In this document: positions 15,110 through 20,275 of the stretch, one piece after another
Numbering within the stretch: the first letter of the stretch is position 1
How the letters are laid out: the number at the start of each line of letters is the position of its first letter
NCBI GenBank assembly: GCA_005792285.1
Contig: SXSI01000047.1
Coordinates: 102,058 to 166,057 of the forward strand
Direction: 5' to 3'
Length of the DNA: 64,000 nt
From: Bacteroidota bacterium
GTDB lineage: Bacteria > Bacteroidota > Ignavibacteria > UBA10030 > UBA8401
Position numbers and translations under genes: made by a program
The notes under the pieces: model-generated
What the model saw: only the letters and a program-made list of their open reading frames with translations
The model's database searches: none
What the model was told of the DNA's origin: nothing

Positions 15110-15937
15110 TTAACTCCTTTTATTTATTGTGAATAATTGTGTCCAATTATAAAAAAATATTAATACAAGTAAAAGAAATAAAAATATTATTCCTTCAACC
15201 ATAAAAATAGAATTCTTTGTAATAAAATAAGAATTGCCATCATAAATAATTGAAGTGCTGATAATTTGTGAAAAGGAAACAATTCCAACTCTGAGACTAT
15301 ATGATTCCCAAATAGTTCCAAATTTGGATACAATTAAAGTTGCTATAATCCCTGAAAAGAAATAATAACTTGCAAGTAAACTAATATTACTCCAAATAAT
15401 ATTAGTTTCTTTTAATATTTGTAGAATAAATTCATCGCTATAATAAAGTGTGAATAATAAATTAGGAATTATGAAAGCAGCAATATTTCCAGATTTAGTA
15501 AATTCACTTAGAATAATTCCTCTAAATATAATTTCTTCAATCAAAATTATCGTAATAGAAAATAACCAGATTGCTGGAAAATCAAAAATAATCCCAAAAA
15601 CAAATAACGTAAAATCCTTTATTTCGCCAGTTTGTATTTCTCCAAAAATTATTCCAATTAACAATAAAAGAAAACTTGCAATAAGTGGGATAATGAGATA
15701 GACAATTACATTTTTTAAATTGAAATTTTTAAGATTTGAGACTACAAACTCTTTTAATGAAGAAAGTCTACTACTATAGATAAGTAAAATAAAAATTAAA
15801 AATAAAATAATCTTCCAACTGAATTGGAATTCCCAAAGAAATATATTTGTCGAAATATTCTGAAAAGCTAAAACTACTCCGAATAAAGCAATAAAAAATG
15901 TGATTAAAGTCAGTTTAAGAATTAAACTAATTTTCAT
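15110..15937 (-). CDS. CPBP (CAAX protease/bacteriocin-processing)-like integral membrane protein, degenerate motifs
   Basis: Multiple TM segments; motif 1 EEIIFRG present; later His-containing motifs not evident. Confidence 0.7.
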   Translation of the reverse strand: MKISLILKLTLITFFIALFGVVLAFQNISTNIFLWEFQFSWKIILFLIFILLIYSSRLSSLKEFVVSNLKNFNLKNVIVYLIIPLIASFLLLLIGIIFGEIQTGEIKDFTLFVFGIIFDFPAIWLFSITIILIEEIIFRGIILSEFTKSGNIAAFIIPNLLFTLYYSDEFILQILKETNIIWSNISLLASYYFFSGIIATLIVSKFGTIWESYSLRVGIVSFSQIISTSIIYDGNSYFITKNSIFMVEGIIFLFLLLVLIFFYNWTQLFTINKRS

Positions 15938-15946
15938 ACTTTTAAT

Positions 15947-15963
15947 ACGACTTAACTAGTCCT
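15947..15963. promoter_or_regulatory. Operator-like imperfect palindrome 1 upstream of feoA
   Basis: ACGACTTAACTAGTCCT; 14/17 identical to palindrome at 16000-16016, 53 bp apart. Confidence 0.55.
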
Positions 15964-15964
15964 A

Positions 15965-15996
15965 TTTGGAATATCATAATACATTCACTATTTTTA
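15965..15996 (+). promoter_or_regulatory. Candidate feo promoter
   Basis: TTTG-N20-TATTTTTA (TTTG perfect; TAnnTTTG with one mismatch), located between the two palindromes. Confidence 0.6.
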
Positions 15997-15999
15997 TAT

Positions 16000-16016
16000 A
16001 CGACTAAATTAGTCGT
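16000..16016. promoter_or_regulatory. Operator-like perfect palindrome 2 upstream of feoA
   Basis: ACGACTAA-A-TTAGTCGT, 8-bp perfect arms, directly after the -7 element. Confidence 0.7.
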
Positions 16017-16031
16017 GTATAGATAATTCAT

Positions 16032-16532
16032 ATGAGCAATTATAAAACAAACGATTGTAAGATGAAAGATGCGCAAACTCTTTCACTTTCGCAAGTTCCT
16101 TCTGGAACGAGAGTTCGCATTGAGAGTTTAACTTCAGACCAAAATATTTGTAATCGCCTTCGCGAACTTGGTTTTTGTGAAGAAGCCGAAATCAGATGTT
16201 TAACTTCCGGTGAGAGTAATATTGTTTGTGAAGTTTGTAATACAAGAATTGTTTTAAATACTGAAGTCGCAGACAAAATACTAGTTACTCCAATTAAGCA
16301 GGAATTAATTCCACTTCTTGAACTTCCACTTTTTACAAAAGCAAAAGTAAATAAATTATTAAAAATAGATCCTTCCTTGAAAGCTCGATTAATGGAAATG
16401 GGAATTACAAAAGGAACGGAAGTTGAAATAATTCGATTTGCACCATTGGGAGATCCAATTGAAATAACTTTACGAGGTTATCGTTTATCGCTTAGAAAAT
16501 CAGAAGCTGAAGCAATTTTAGTTTCATTGTAA
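16032..16532 (+). CDS. feoA: Ferrous iron transport protein A, two FeoA domains in tandem
   Basis: Two FeoA/SH3-like repeats: SLSQVPSGTRVRIESL...RLRELGFCEEAEIRCL and KLLKIDPSLKARLMEMGITKGTEVEIIRFAPLGDPIEITLRGYRLSLRKSEAEAI. Confidence 0.9.
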   Translation: MSNYKTNDCKMKDAQTLSLSQVPSGTRVRIESLTSDQNICNRLRELGFCEEAEIRCLTSGESNIVCEVCNTRIVLNTEVADKILVTPIKQELIPLLELPLFTKAKVNKLLKIDPSLKARLMEMGITKGTEVEIIRFAPLGDPIEITLRGYRLSLRKSEAEAILVSL

Positions 16533-16544
16533 GAAAATATTTAA

Positions 16545-18644
16545 ATGTCGTTATCAACTCTCTCTAAAATAAAAACTGTTGCAATAATTGGGAATCCTAA
16601 TTGCGGAAAAAGTACGCTATTTAATTCTTTAACCGGATTAAAACAAAAAGTTGCAAATTATCCTGGCGTAACTGTTGAAAAGAAAATCGGTAAATTATTT
16701 TTAAAAGATAATATTGAAATCAATTTAATTGATTTGCCCGGAAGTTACAGTTTGTTTGCTAATTCCCCCGATGAAGAAATTTCTTCAAAAGTTTTATTGG
16801 GATTAGTTGACGAGACACCGAAACCTGATCTTGTGCTTTGTGTTATCGACGCAACCAATATTGAAAGAAATTTATATCTTCTTTCACAAATTATTGATCT
16901 TCGACTTCCTGTAATTCTTGTTTTAAACATGATTGATGTTGCAACTCAAGAGAATATTAAAATAAATAAGAATAAACTTTCGGCATTACTTGATCTTCCC
17001 ATAATTGAAACTGTTGCACCAAAATATATTGGTATTGAAGAACTTAAAAATGAAATTACCAAAGTAATAATTCCTTCAACTTCTTTGAGGAAATGGTACA
17101 CTTCAAACGAAGTTGAACATAATACTCAACTACTTTCAAAAAAAATTAGCATTTCAAAAAATATTTCATTCGATATTGCTCACCACTATGCGGTTCAATT
17201 ATTATCTTCAACAAACTCTTCAACAAACGGCGAATTTTCGAAAGATCTAATTTCAATTGCAGATAAAATAAAAGAAAAAATGTCTTTCCTCGATATTGAC
17301 CTTTCTTCAATTTTTATCGAATCAAGATATCATTGGATAAAATCTGTTTGCAATGAATCAATAATTTTCCATCGAGATGACGAATTAACTTTTAGCGATA
17401 AAATTGACAAAGTATTAACACACAAATATTGGGGCTTTATTATTTTCATTTCCATTCTTTCACTAATTTTTCAATCGATATTTACATGGGCTGTACTTCC
17501 AATGAACTTAATTGGAGGTGCTATAAATTTATTTTCCACATTTATTGAATCATCAATTCCTACCGGACAACTTCAACAATTAATTGTAAATGGAATTATC
17601 GCAGGAGTTGGTGCTGTTGTAACTTTTGTACCTCAAATATTTTTGCTTTTCATTTTTATTGGAGTATTGGAAGATTCAGGTTACATGTCTCGCGCAGCTT
17701 TTATAATGGATAAATTAATGAGTAAAGTTGGTTTGCACGGAAAATCTTTCATTCCAATGTTAAGTTCTTTTGCATGCGCAATTCCCGGAATAATGGCAAC
17801 GAGAACAATCGAAAATAAAAAAGATCGGCTCGTTACAATTTTAGTTATTCCACTAATGAGTTGCAGCGCAAGGATTCCTGTTTATACTTTATTAATTGCA
17901 GCATTCATTCCACAATATTTTGTCTTTGGAATTTTTTCTTTACCCGGATTAGTTATGATATCGATGTATCTTCTCGGTTTAGTTGCAGCACTTTGCATGG
18001 CTTGGTTATTTAAAAAAACTTTATTAAGAGGTAACCGCCAAATTTTTATAATGGAACTTCCTCCATACAAACTTCCATCTGTAAAAACTTTATTTCTACA
18101 TGCTTGGGAAAGAGTAAAATTGTTTTTGAAAAGAGCCGGAACAATAATTCTTGGAATTTCAATTGTTCTTTGGTTCTTCGCAACTTATCCAAACGTAGAT
18201 GAAAAAGATTCTTCAAAAAGACTCAAAAATAGTTTTATTGGACAAGCTGGACAATTGATTGAACCATTAATCAAACCTTTAGGATTTAATTGGAAAATTG
18301 GTGTCGGATTAATTACTTCATTATTACAAAGAGAAGTTTTCGTTTCGACAATGGGTGTAATTTATAAAGTTGATGATTCTGATATTTCATCTCAATCTTT
18401 ACAAGAAAATATTAAAAATGATATAGATGAGTCCTCAGGAAATCTCTCATTCACTCCACTTATCGCAATTTGCGTGATGATTTACTACGTACTTGCGATG
18501 CAATGCTTTTCAACACTTGCAGTTGTTCGAAGAGAAACTAATAGTTGGAAATGGCCAATTTTTCAATTCTGCTATATGACTATTTTAGCTTACAGCGTAA
18601 CATTCTTTGCATATCGCTTTGGATTATTTTTAGGATTTACATAA
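16545..18644 (+). CDS. feoB: Ferrous iron transport protein B
   Basis: GNPNCGKSTLFNSLTGLKQKVANYPGVTVEKK; DLPGSYSL; Gate motifs GFIIFISILSLIFQSIFTW, SFACAIPGIMATRTI, MSCSARIPVYTLL. Confidence 0.98.
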   Translation: MSLSTLSKIKTVAIIGNPNCGKSTLFNSLTGLKQKVANYPGVTVEKKIGKLFLKDNIEINLIDLPGSYSLFANSPDEEISSKVLLGLVDETPKPDLVLCVIDATNIERNLYLLSQIIDLRLPVILVLNMIDVATQENIKINKNKLSALLDLPIIETVAPKYIGIEELKNEITKVIIPSTSLRKWYTSNEVEHNTQLLSKKISISKNISFDIAHHYAVQLLSSTNSSTNGEFSKDLISIADKIKEKMSFLDIDLSSIFIESRYHWIKSVCNESIIFHRDDELTFSDKIDKVLTHKYWGFIIFISILSLIFQSIFTWAVLPMNLIGGAINLFSTFIESSIPTGQLQQLIVNGIIAGVGAVVTFVPQIFLLFIFIGVLEDSGYMSRAAFIMDKLMSKVGLHGKSFIPMLSSFACAIPGIMATRTIENKKDRLVTILVIPLMSCSARIPVYTLLIAAFIPQYFVFGIFSLPGLVMISMYLLGLVAALCMAWLFKKTLLRGNRQIFIMELPPYKLPSVKTLFLHAWERVKLFLKRAGTIILGISIVLWFFATYPNVDEKDSSKRLKNSFIGQAGQLIEPLIKPLGFNWKIGVGLITSLLQREVFVSTMGVIYKVDDSDISSQSLQENIKNDIDESSGNLSFTPLIAICVMIYYVLAMQCFSTLAVVRRETNSWKWPIFQFCYMTILAYSVTFFAYRFGLFLGFT

Positions 18645-18787
18645 TGGACTGGCAAGAAATTACAACTTTATTTATTGTAGCCGCTACAATAATATTAATG
18701 ATCAGAAAAAGATTTTTTAATAAAAAACAAATTGGTAAATGTAATGACGATTGCAATTGTCAAACAAACAATCAAAAACATATTTAA
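18644..18787 (+). CDS. FeoB-associated Cys-rich small membrane protein
   Basis: ATG overlaps the feoB stop (TAATG); MDWQEITTLFIVAATIILMIRKRFFNKKQIGKCNDDCNCQTNNQKHI: one TM then Cys-rich tail. Shorter start than the ORF track (18545). Confidence 0.75.
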   Translation: MDWQEITTLFIVAATIILMIRKRFFNKKQIGKCNDDCNCQTNNQKHI

Positions 18788-18796
18788 AAAGGAAAA

Positions 18797-19579
18797 ATGA
18801 AGAAGTTATTACTAGCAGTACTATTGATTACACCACTATTTTTAAATGCAAATTCGCGTAGATTTTCTTACACTTATGAAACTAATGTTTTACCAAAAGG
18901 TATTGCAGAACTCGAAGTTTGGGGAACATTCCGATCGCAAAGGAATTATTTTTACCAAAGATTTGATCAAAGAATGGAATTTGAATATGGACTTGGAAAT
19001 GATTTACAAGTCGCTTTTTATTTGAATTCAACATTTAGAAGTGAAGATGATAATAAAGCAACTGCAGGTGGAACTTTAAAAACTACACAATCCACCTCAA
19101 TTTCATCAGAATGGAAATGGAAACTTTCAGATCGAGTTGCAGATCCTATTGGTTCAGCAGTTTATGCAGAGTACACAGTTGGTACAGATAATTCTAAAAT
19201 TGAAGGAAAAGTTTTTTTTGATAAACAATTTGAAGATTATCTAGTTGCATTTAATTCGATTTACAAACGATCGTGGAAAGTTGGTACAAATCTTGCAAAA
19301 ACTTTTGAAGATGAAGTTGAATTTGATTTAGGAGTTGCATATACAGCTAATCCGGAATATTCATTTGGGATTGAATTAAGAAACCACAACTATATAATTG
19401 ATGGAAATATTACAAATTCTGCTTTATTTTTTGGACCATCTTTTTCCTATTCGACAAAAGCAGGTTGGTTTGTACTTACTGTAATGCCACAAATTAAAAA
19501 TTTAAAAAGTAGCCAGTCACTTGATTTTTCTAAATATGAAAAAGTTTTAACTAGACTATTGTTCAGTATAGAATTATGA
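18797..19579 (+). CDS. Outer-membrane beta-barrel-like secreted protein, unknown function
   Basis: Signal peptide MKKLLLAVLLITPLFLNANS; alternating aromatic/polar strand pattern. Confidence 0.7.
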   Translation: MKKLLLAVLLITPLFLNANSRRFSYTYETNVLPKGIAELEVWGTFRSQRNYFYQRFDQRMEFEYGLGNDLQVAFYLNSTFRSEDDNKATAGGTLKTTQSTSISSEWKWKLSDRVADPIGSAVYAEYTVGTDNSKIEGKVFFDKQFEDYLVAFNSIYKRSWKVGTNLAKTFEDEVEFDLGVAYTANPEYSFGIELRNHNYIIDGNITNSALFFGPSFSYSTKAGWFVLTVMPQIKNLKSSQSLDFSKYEKVLTRLLFSIEL

Positions 19580-19923
19580 TAAAATATAGACTTCTCTTTT
19601 TATCTTTAATTATTATTTCAACATCATTTTTTGTTGCCTCTTGTGCAACATCATTAATCCCAACAATTTCATCTGAACATATTAAATATGCAAATGAAAG
19701 ATGGGGAAATATAAATTCGAGTGATTTAATTGCTGCACGGGAAAAATATATACAGACTTGTTCTGGATGTCATTCACTTCCCTTGATTACAGATCATGAT
19801 GAAAAGAAATGGACTGAACTTATAAATGATATGACAAAAGAAATTAATTTACCTGATGCGGATAAAGAGATAATTCAAAAATATGTTTTTACAATTTTAA
19901 ATACCTACGATAAATCAAAATAA
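19576..19923 (+). CDS. Small c-type cytochrome-like lipoprotein
   Basis: Lipobox FVASC; heme motif CSGCH; ATGA overlap with preceding gene. Confidence 0.8.
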   Translation: MIKYRLLFLSLIIISTSFFVASCATSLIPTISSEHIKYANERWGNINSSDLIAAREKYIQTCSGCHSLPLITDHDEKKWTELINDMTKEINLPDADKEIIQKYVFTILNTYDKSK

Positions 19924-19948
19924 TTTTAAAAACCTAACCAAAATAAAT

Positions 19949-20275
19949 ATGGAAACTAATCAAAATGTAATTTTGCCTCTCACAAAAGAATTAATTCTTG
20001 AAGCATTGATGGATGTAATCGATCCAGAATTTCCAGTTAGCGTTGTTGATCTTGGATTAATCTATGATGTCAAAATTATTGATAATTGGGTTGGAGTTAA
20101 AATGACAATGACTACTCCCGGTTGTGGAATGCAAAATGTAATTGCAAATAATGTTCGTCATAGAGTTAAAATTATTCCAGGTGTTAGCGATGCAGATGTT
20201 AGAATTGTTTGGCAACCAACTTGGACTCCGAGCATGATGAGTGCTTTTGCAAAAGAAAAATTAAAAATGAAATAA
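19949..20275 (+). CDS. DUF59/MIP18-type metal-sulfur cluster assembly protein
   Basis: ALMDVIDPEFPVSVVDLGLIYDV...VKMTMTTPGCGM...GVSDADVRIVWQPTWTPSMMS. Confidence 0.92.
   Translation: METNQNVILPLTKELILEALMDVIDPEFPVSVVDLGLIYDVKIIDNWVGVKMTMTTPGCGMQNVIANNVRHRVKIIPGVSDADVRIVWQPTWTPSMMSAFAKEKLKMK

Follow-up and report, generated by a model that had tools for sequence, protein, structure and literature searches.

A feo promoter flanked by two candidate operators of a RisR/IscR-like Rrf2 regulator in an Ignavibacteria genus without Fur

Two related palindromes flank the probable feo promoter

The ferrous iron uptake (feo) operon analysed here raises the question of which regulator its promoter answers to: two related palindromes lie on either side of it, and a preliminary description of this DNA had tentatively assigned them to a metalloregulator of the DtxR/MntR or Fur type. 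The window, by which we mean the whole stretch of DNA analysed, comprises 64,000 nt of contig SXSI01000047.1 (GCA_005792285.1; forward-strand positions 102,058-166,057) from a Bacteroidota bacterium (Ignavibacteria; UBA10030; UBA8401). We refer to the genome under study (1.68 Mb, 95.6% complete) as G000, to its congener (listed as 100% complete) as G001 and to their genus as g1. The features around the promoter are as follows.

15110-15937, minus strand: divergent CPBP/Rce1-like membrane protein gene (Pfam PF02517), with its start at 15937
15947-15963, no strand: candidate upstream operator ACGACTTAACTAGTCCT, adjacent to the -33 element, with the ATG of the divergent CPBP gene 9 bp away
15949-15961: core of the upstream operator, GACTTAACTAGTC, 22.2 bits with the matrix from other genera's rrf2 sites
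15965-15996, plus strand: probable feo promoter, TTTG (15965-15968), N20, TATTTTTA (15989-15996)
16000-16016, no strand: candidate downstream operator ACGACTAAATTAGTCGT, a perfect 8+1+8 palindrome that covers the expected transcription start
16002-16014: core of the downstream operator, GACTAAATTAGTC, 22.5 bits with the same matrix
16032-16532, plus strand: FeoA-FeoA double-domain protein, encoded by the gene that opens the feo operon (Pfam FeoA in two stretches, E 7e-37)
16545-18644, plus strand: FeoB ferrous iron transporter (TIGR00437, 545.6 bits, above cut-off)

The paired palindromes are real and well supported: re-reading the sequence returned the positions and letters first reported, namely a perfect 17-mer and a partner identical to it at 14 of 17 positions (ACGACTTAACTAGTCCT versus ACGACTAAATTAGTCGT), whose starts are offset by 53 bp, or 5.05 turns at 10.5 bp per turn. 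The letters common to both form the core GACT-N5-AGTC. The TTTG-N20-TATTTTTA promoter proposed between them fits exactly and its coordinates agree, with TTTGGA-N18-TATTTT as an alternative reading. A sigma-70 scan returned a single promoter-like match, not above chance; 15965-15996 probably works as the feo promoter.

The operon has some further features. Its FeoA is a two-domain fusion; in several sister genera, two separate feoA genes follow one another. Among FeoB proteins with a named source, the closest (47%) comes from a MAG labelled Armatimonadetes (JACQGJ010000192.1), which may be a mislabelled bin or a case of horizontal transfer. The region 3' of feoB (18545-20275) holds a small Cys-rich frame, weakly matched by Pfam as FeoB-associated, a DUF6662-like protein, a protein of 115 aa that carries a haem-type CSGCH motif, and a SufT/MIP18-like protein.

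The core occurs at three places in each of two species

A pattern search of the whole 1.68-Mb genome returned three occurrences of GACT-N5-AGTC: the two at feo and a third at G000:C50:13371-13383, 10 bp ahead of the sole Rrf2-family gene's start codon. The count itself is not high (3, versus about 14 expected from base composition and 7 for a reversed control), but the placement is far beyond chance: a pair at feo with a 53-bp offset, a third site just before the sole rrf2, and the whole set repeated in a second species. No other genome match to the full 17-mer has fewer than three mismatches, and a wider pattern with three mismatches returned only background (69 matches per strand versus 81 for the control). 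Within 1200 bp upstream of feoB, the exact core was absent from 80 loci of FeoB relatives from named organisms. These genome-wide statements rest on pattern and family searches; the matrix scan described below covered the window and four other G000 loci.

The second species is G001, whose Rrf2 and FeoA are 79% and 73% identical to those of G000. It also has three cores, in the same places and nowhere else, and in both species the feo pair, again 53 bp apart, occupies positions -83 and -30 relative to feoA. Comparison of the region upstream of feo in relatives found the motif in the congener with its spacing kept, and the proposed arrangement of paired operators flanking the promoter in helical phase stands, the spacing being identical. 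Between the two genomes, the half-sites at feo are conserved in 16 of 16 letters and the rest of the intergenic region in 52 of 78 (Fisher p = 0.003); both promoter boxes are identical, and the spacer letters 15969-15985 match at 8 of 17 only. A divergent CPBP-like frame is present in G001 as well (L165, 5858 onward), with the arrangement kept.

The motif is common to feo and the rrf2 genes of other genera

The gene behind the third site is the following.

G000:C50:13394-13789: rrf2, the only Rrf2-family gene in the genome (PF02082, 103.5 bits)

It heads an operon of the order rrf2-iscS-orf-sufA-sufB-sufC-sufD-sufS-sufU-sufT (L150), in which iscS was named by NCBIfam and the suf genes by inspection of their translations; the SufT-like gene at its end (L150:11985-12332) is a second one, besides that 3' of feoB. 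The Rrf2 protein scores above the cut-off of TIGR00738 (94 bits). It reaches 56.2 bits against the IscR equivalog TIGR02010, and as this is far under the cut-off of 207.55, we call the protein RisR/IscR-like rather than IscR. Three cysteines, C92, C100 and C106, are invariant in 26 orthologues and align with those of E. coli IscR. The predicted fold matches IscR, RsrR, NsrR and CymR (Foldseek), with the cluster region (residues 91-110) as its least confident part (mean pLDDT ~50).

We built a matrix from 28 genomes of other genera, taking for each rrf2 the core-like site that fitted best in the 150 bp ahead of the gene and excluding all sequences of genus g1; in 26 of the 28 cases the distance from this site to the rrf2 ATG is 4-20 bp. 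Across 177,870 positions (the window and four other G000 loci), this matrix ranked the two feo sites on top (22.5 and 22.2 bits), followed by the genome's own rrf2 site (9.2 bits), and the best unrelated position scored 5.1. The lower score of the own rrf2 site relative to the feo sites suggests that affinity may differ between them. All three genomic sites also fit the pattern GAC-N7-GTC. Elsewhere, in a Fur-containing relative, two GACT-N5-AGTC-like sites 139 bp apart (G010:C18:127407 and 127546; L189:1362 and 1501) precede an outer-membrane/porin-like gene (418 aa), which may also belong to the regulon.

Proposed regulation of feo

We propose, with a probability of roughly 0.8, that both feo palindromes are operators of the sole RisR/IscR-like Rrf2 regulator, the cluster-loaded form of which represses feo while shortage releases it. 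When Fe-S clusters are sufficient, cluster-loaded Rrf2 dimers would bind both feo operators, one dimer against the -33 element and the other over the start site, and the promoter would be blocked; at the third site, before rrf2, the regulator and its suf operon would be repressed. A shortage of iron or of clusters, or oxidation of the cluster, would release the Rrf2 protein from its sites, so that ferrous iron import and cluster assembly would be switched on together. The spacing of 53 bp, near five turns, would let dimers on one face cooperate. What the sequences show directly is the sites, their uniqueness in the genome, their conservation, the motif in common with rrf2 genes and the lack of Fur; binding, the type of cluster, repression and cooperativity are inferred. 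The downstream operator could also act as a roadblock rather than as a promoter block, and the upstream operator possibly co-regulates the divergent CPBP gene. If the proposal is true, ferrous iron uptake in these bacteria follows the supply of iron-sulfur clusters and not free iron, and the regulon consists of three sites only.

The two sites may instead differ in role, with the upstream one serving mainly the CPBP gene, or an activator, and only the downstream one repressing feo. The upstream site lies 9 bp from the CPBP ATG and in a similar place in the congener, and most sister genera have a single GACT site upstream of the -35, a position also used by activators. Moreover, apo-IscR is required for regulation at some E. 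coli promoters (PMC12594620), which makes activation by the upstream feo site a possibility. However, sister genera with an SDR-like divergent gene have the site at feo as well, and since it is kept there beside a different neighbour, it goes with feo and not with CPBP. We consider this division of roles unlikely, though the most serious competitor to repression from both sites.

DtxR/MntR and Fur as candidate regulators

The regulator had been expected to be iron-related, which is supported, but its assignment to DtxR/MntR or Fur did not survive: no Fur-family gene was found in G000 or G001, the DtxR-type box is different, and the operators match the sites upstream of rrf2. The box in question is listed here.

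L006:1290-1311 (G000:C12): DtxR-type box AGATTTAGGTTAACCTAAATCT, a perfect palindrome that immediately precedes the start codon of the single DtxR/MntR-type gene

Control of feo by DtxR proteins is common, and this genome has one such gene, with MntR as its best NCBIfam match; a metal-loaded repressor of this type could thus be imagined on the feo operators. Its own gene, however, is preceded by the perfect canonical AGATTTAGGTTAACCTAAATCT, which is probably autoregulatory, and no DtxR-type box TTAGGTTAACCTAA is found near feo within 3 mismatches. The DtxR/MntR locus, in turn, is without the GACT-N5-AGTC core. With its own canonical TTAGGTTAACCTAA box so different from the feo operators, DtxR/MntR was rejected by family search and box scans, and we regard it as very improbable.

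A Fur-family protein overlooked by the searches, or absent from the assembly, is more improbable still. In sister genera the feo operon begins with fur, and the G000 assembly is 95.6% complete; but the Fur family (PF01475) has no match in G000 or in the 100%-complete G001, while the same search found Fur in 13 of 14 control genomes, and the separate Fur-box-like palindrome of the sister genera (TTTAGATTAAGTCTAAA, after the -10) is absent from feo here. Fur was accordingly rejected by this family search and by box scan.

That the likeness of the two palindromes is mere chance in AT-rich DNA, as a core count per genome not above expectation might suggest, is refuted for practical purposes by the congener and has next to no probability, given the placement at feo and the sole rrf2 in two species, the exact 53-bp spacing, the half-site conservation and the cross-genus matrix ranking.

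Promoter history across the family

Every Fur gene found in the family lies directly before feoA, and two members without Fur (G006 and G008) also had no FeoA match. The fur-feo promoters carry, just after the -10, the palindrome TTTAGA-N-T-N-A-N-TCTAAA (at most 1 mismatch; TTTAGATTAAGTCTAAA), which we call Fur-box-like on its position before fur and which is found in an outgroup family too. A GACT-N5-AGTC site, with no more than 1 mismatch, starts exactly 80 bp before this palindrome in 11 genomes. At the same threshold, four family members checked (G003, G016, G020 and G007) had no such site, and G013 has one elsewhere. Genus g5 (G005, L152; G013, L159) shows a GACT-like site between the -35 and the -10, besides the Fur-box-like palindrome. 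The feo operon of genus g1 retains neither fur nor the Fur-box-like palindrome; in the place after the -10 it carries a second GACT site.

In the simplest account, the family acquired an Rrf2 site alongside Fur, and the takeover by Rrf2 became complete in g1 with the loss of Fur. On balance, we lean towards an operator replacement in this small-genome genus, in which fur was lost, a second Rrf2 operator came to stand for the Fur box, and iron import passed wholly under iron-sulfur status via a three-site suf and feo regulon. As the presumed ancestral promoter (Fur and one Rrf2 site) and the derived one (no Fur, two Rrf2 sites) occur in one family, this transcription-factor replacement is directly testable.

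Comparison with known systems

The regulator resembles RisR of Myxococcus xanthus, from Rrf2 subgroup IS6, whose reported members include Chlorobi; the footprints of holo-RisR, a repressor, fall on GAC-N7-GTC at isc and suf (PMC9973013). As is the case with RisR, the protein studied here has three conserved Cys residues, its gene heads a suf operon and its sites fit the GAC-N7-GTC palindrome, which has AT-rich flanks at RisR's site. The Cys spacing differs (C92/C102/C108 in RisR versus C92/C100/C106 here), and the known direct targets of RisR are isc and suf, with feo not mentioned in PMC9973013. If our proposal is true, a RisR-like regulator gains a candidate direct target outside cluster assembly.

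Likeness to E. coli IscR and its sites extends to 26% protein identity, three aligned Cys residues and an exact core: GACTAAATCAGTC, in front of iscR in MG1655, is an exact GACT-N5-AGTC core one letter from GACTAAATTAGTC, and the type 1 sites of the E. coli isc promoter bind [2Fe-2S] IscR (PMC12594620). The protein differs from IscR in its score against the equivalog (~56 bits versus a cut-off of 207.55), in having suf genes in its operon and in its shorter C-terminus.

An Rrf2-type regulator also controls iron uptake genes in Rhodobacter sphaeroides, where feoA1 and feoB appear in the gene table for IscR and the Iron-Rhodo-box (PMC4618611); feoAB under IscR in Rhodobacter, and IscR control of feo in Yersinia too, are cited in a passage of PMC11475020. 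R. sphaeroides IscR differs, however, in its 19-bp box of another class, its single-Cys cluster ligation and its large regulon, versus three sites here. For control of suf by Rrf2 in Bacteroidetes, our literature search returned no paper.

The nearest relative of the promoter itself is the Fur-controlled feo of the sister genera (fur-feoA-feoA-feoB), which is the same operon and in most cases retains a GACT-N5-AGTC site upstream, with a second operator just after the -10. There, however, the second operator is Fur-box-like and the operon encodes fur, both of which are missing in g1. The type of regulator is already known, and the new part is the swap of a Fur for an Rrf2 operator.
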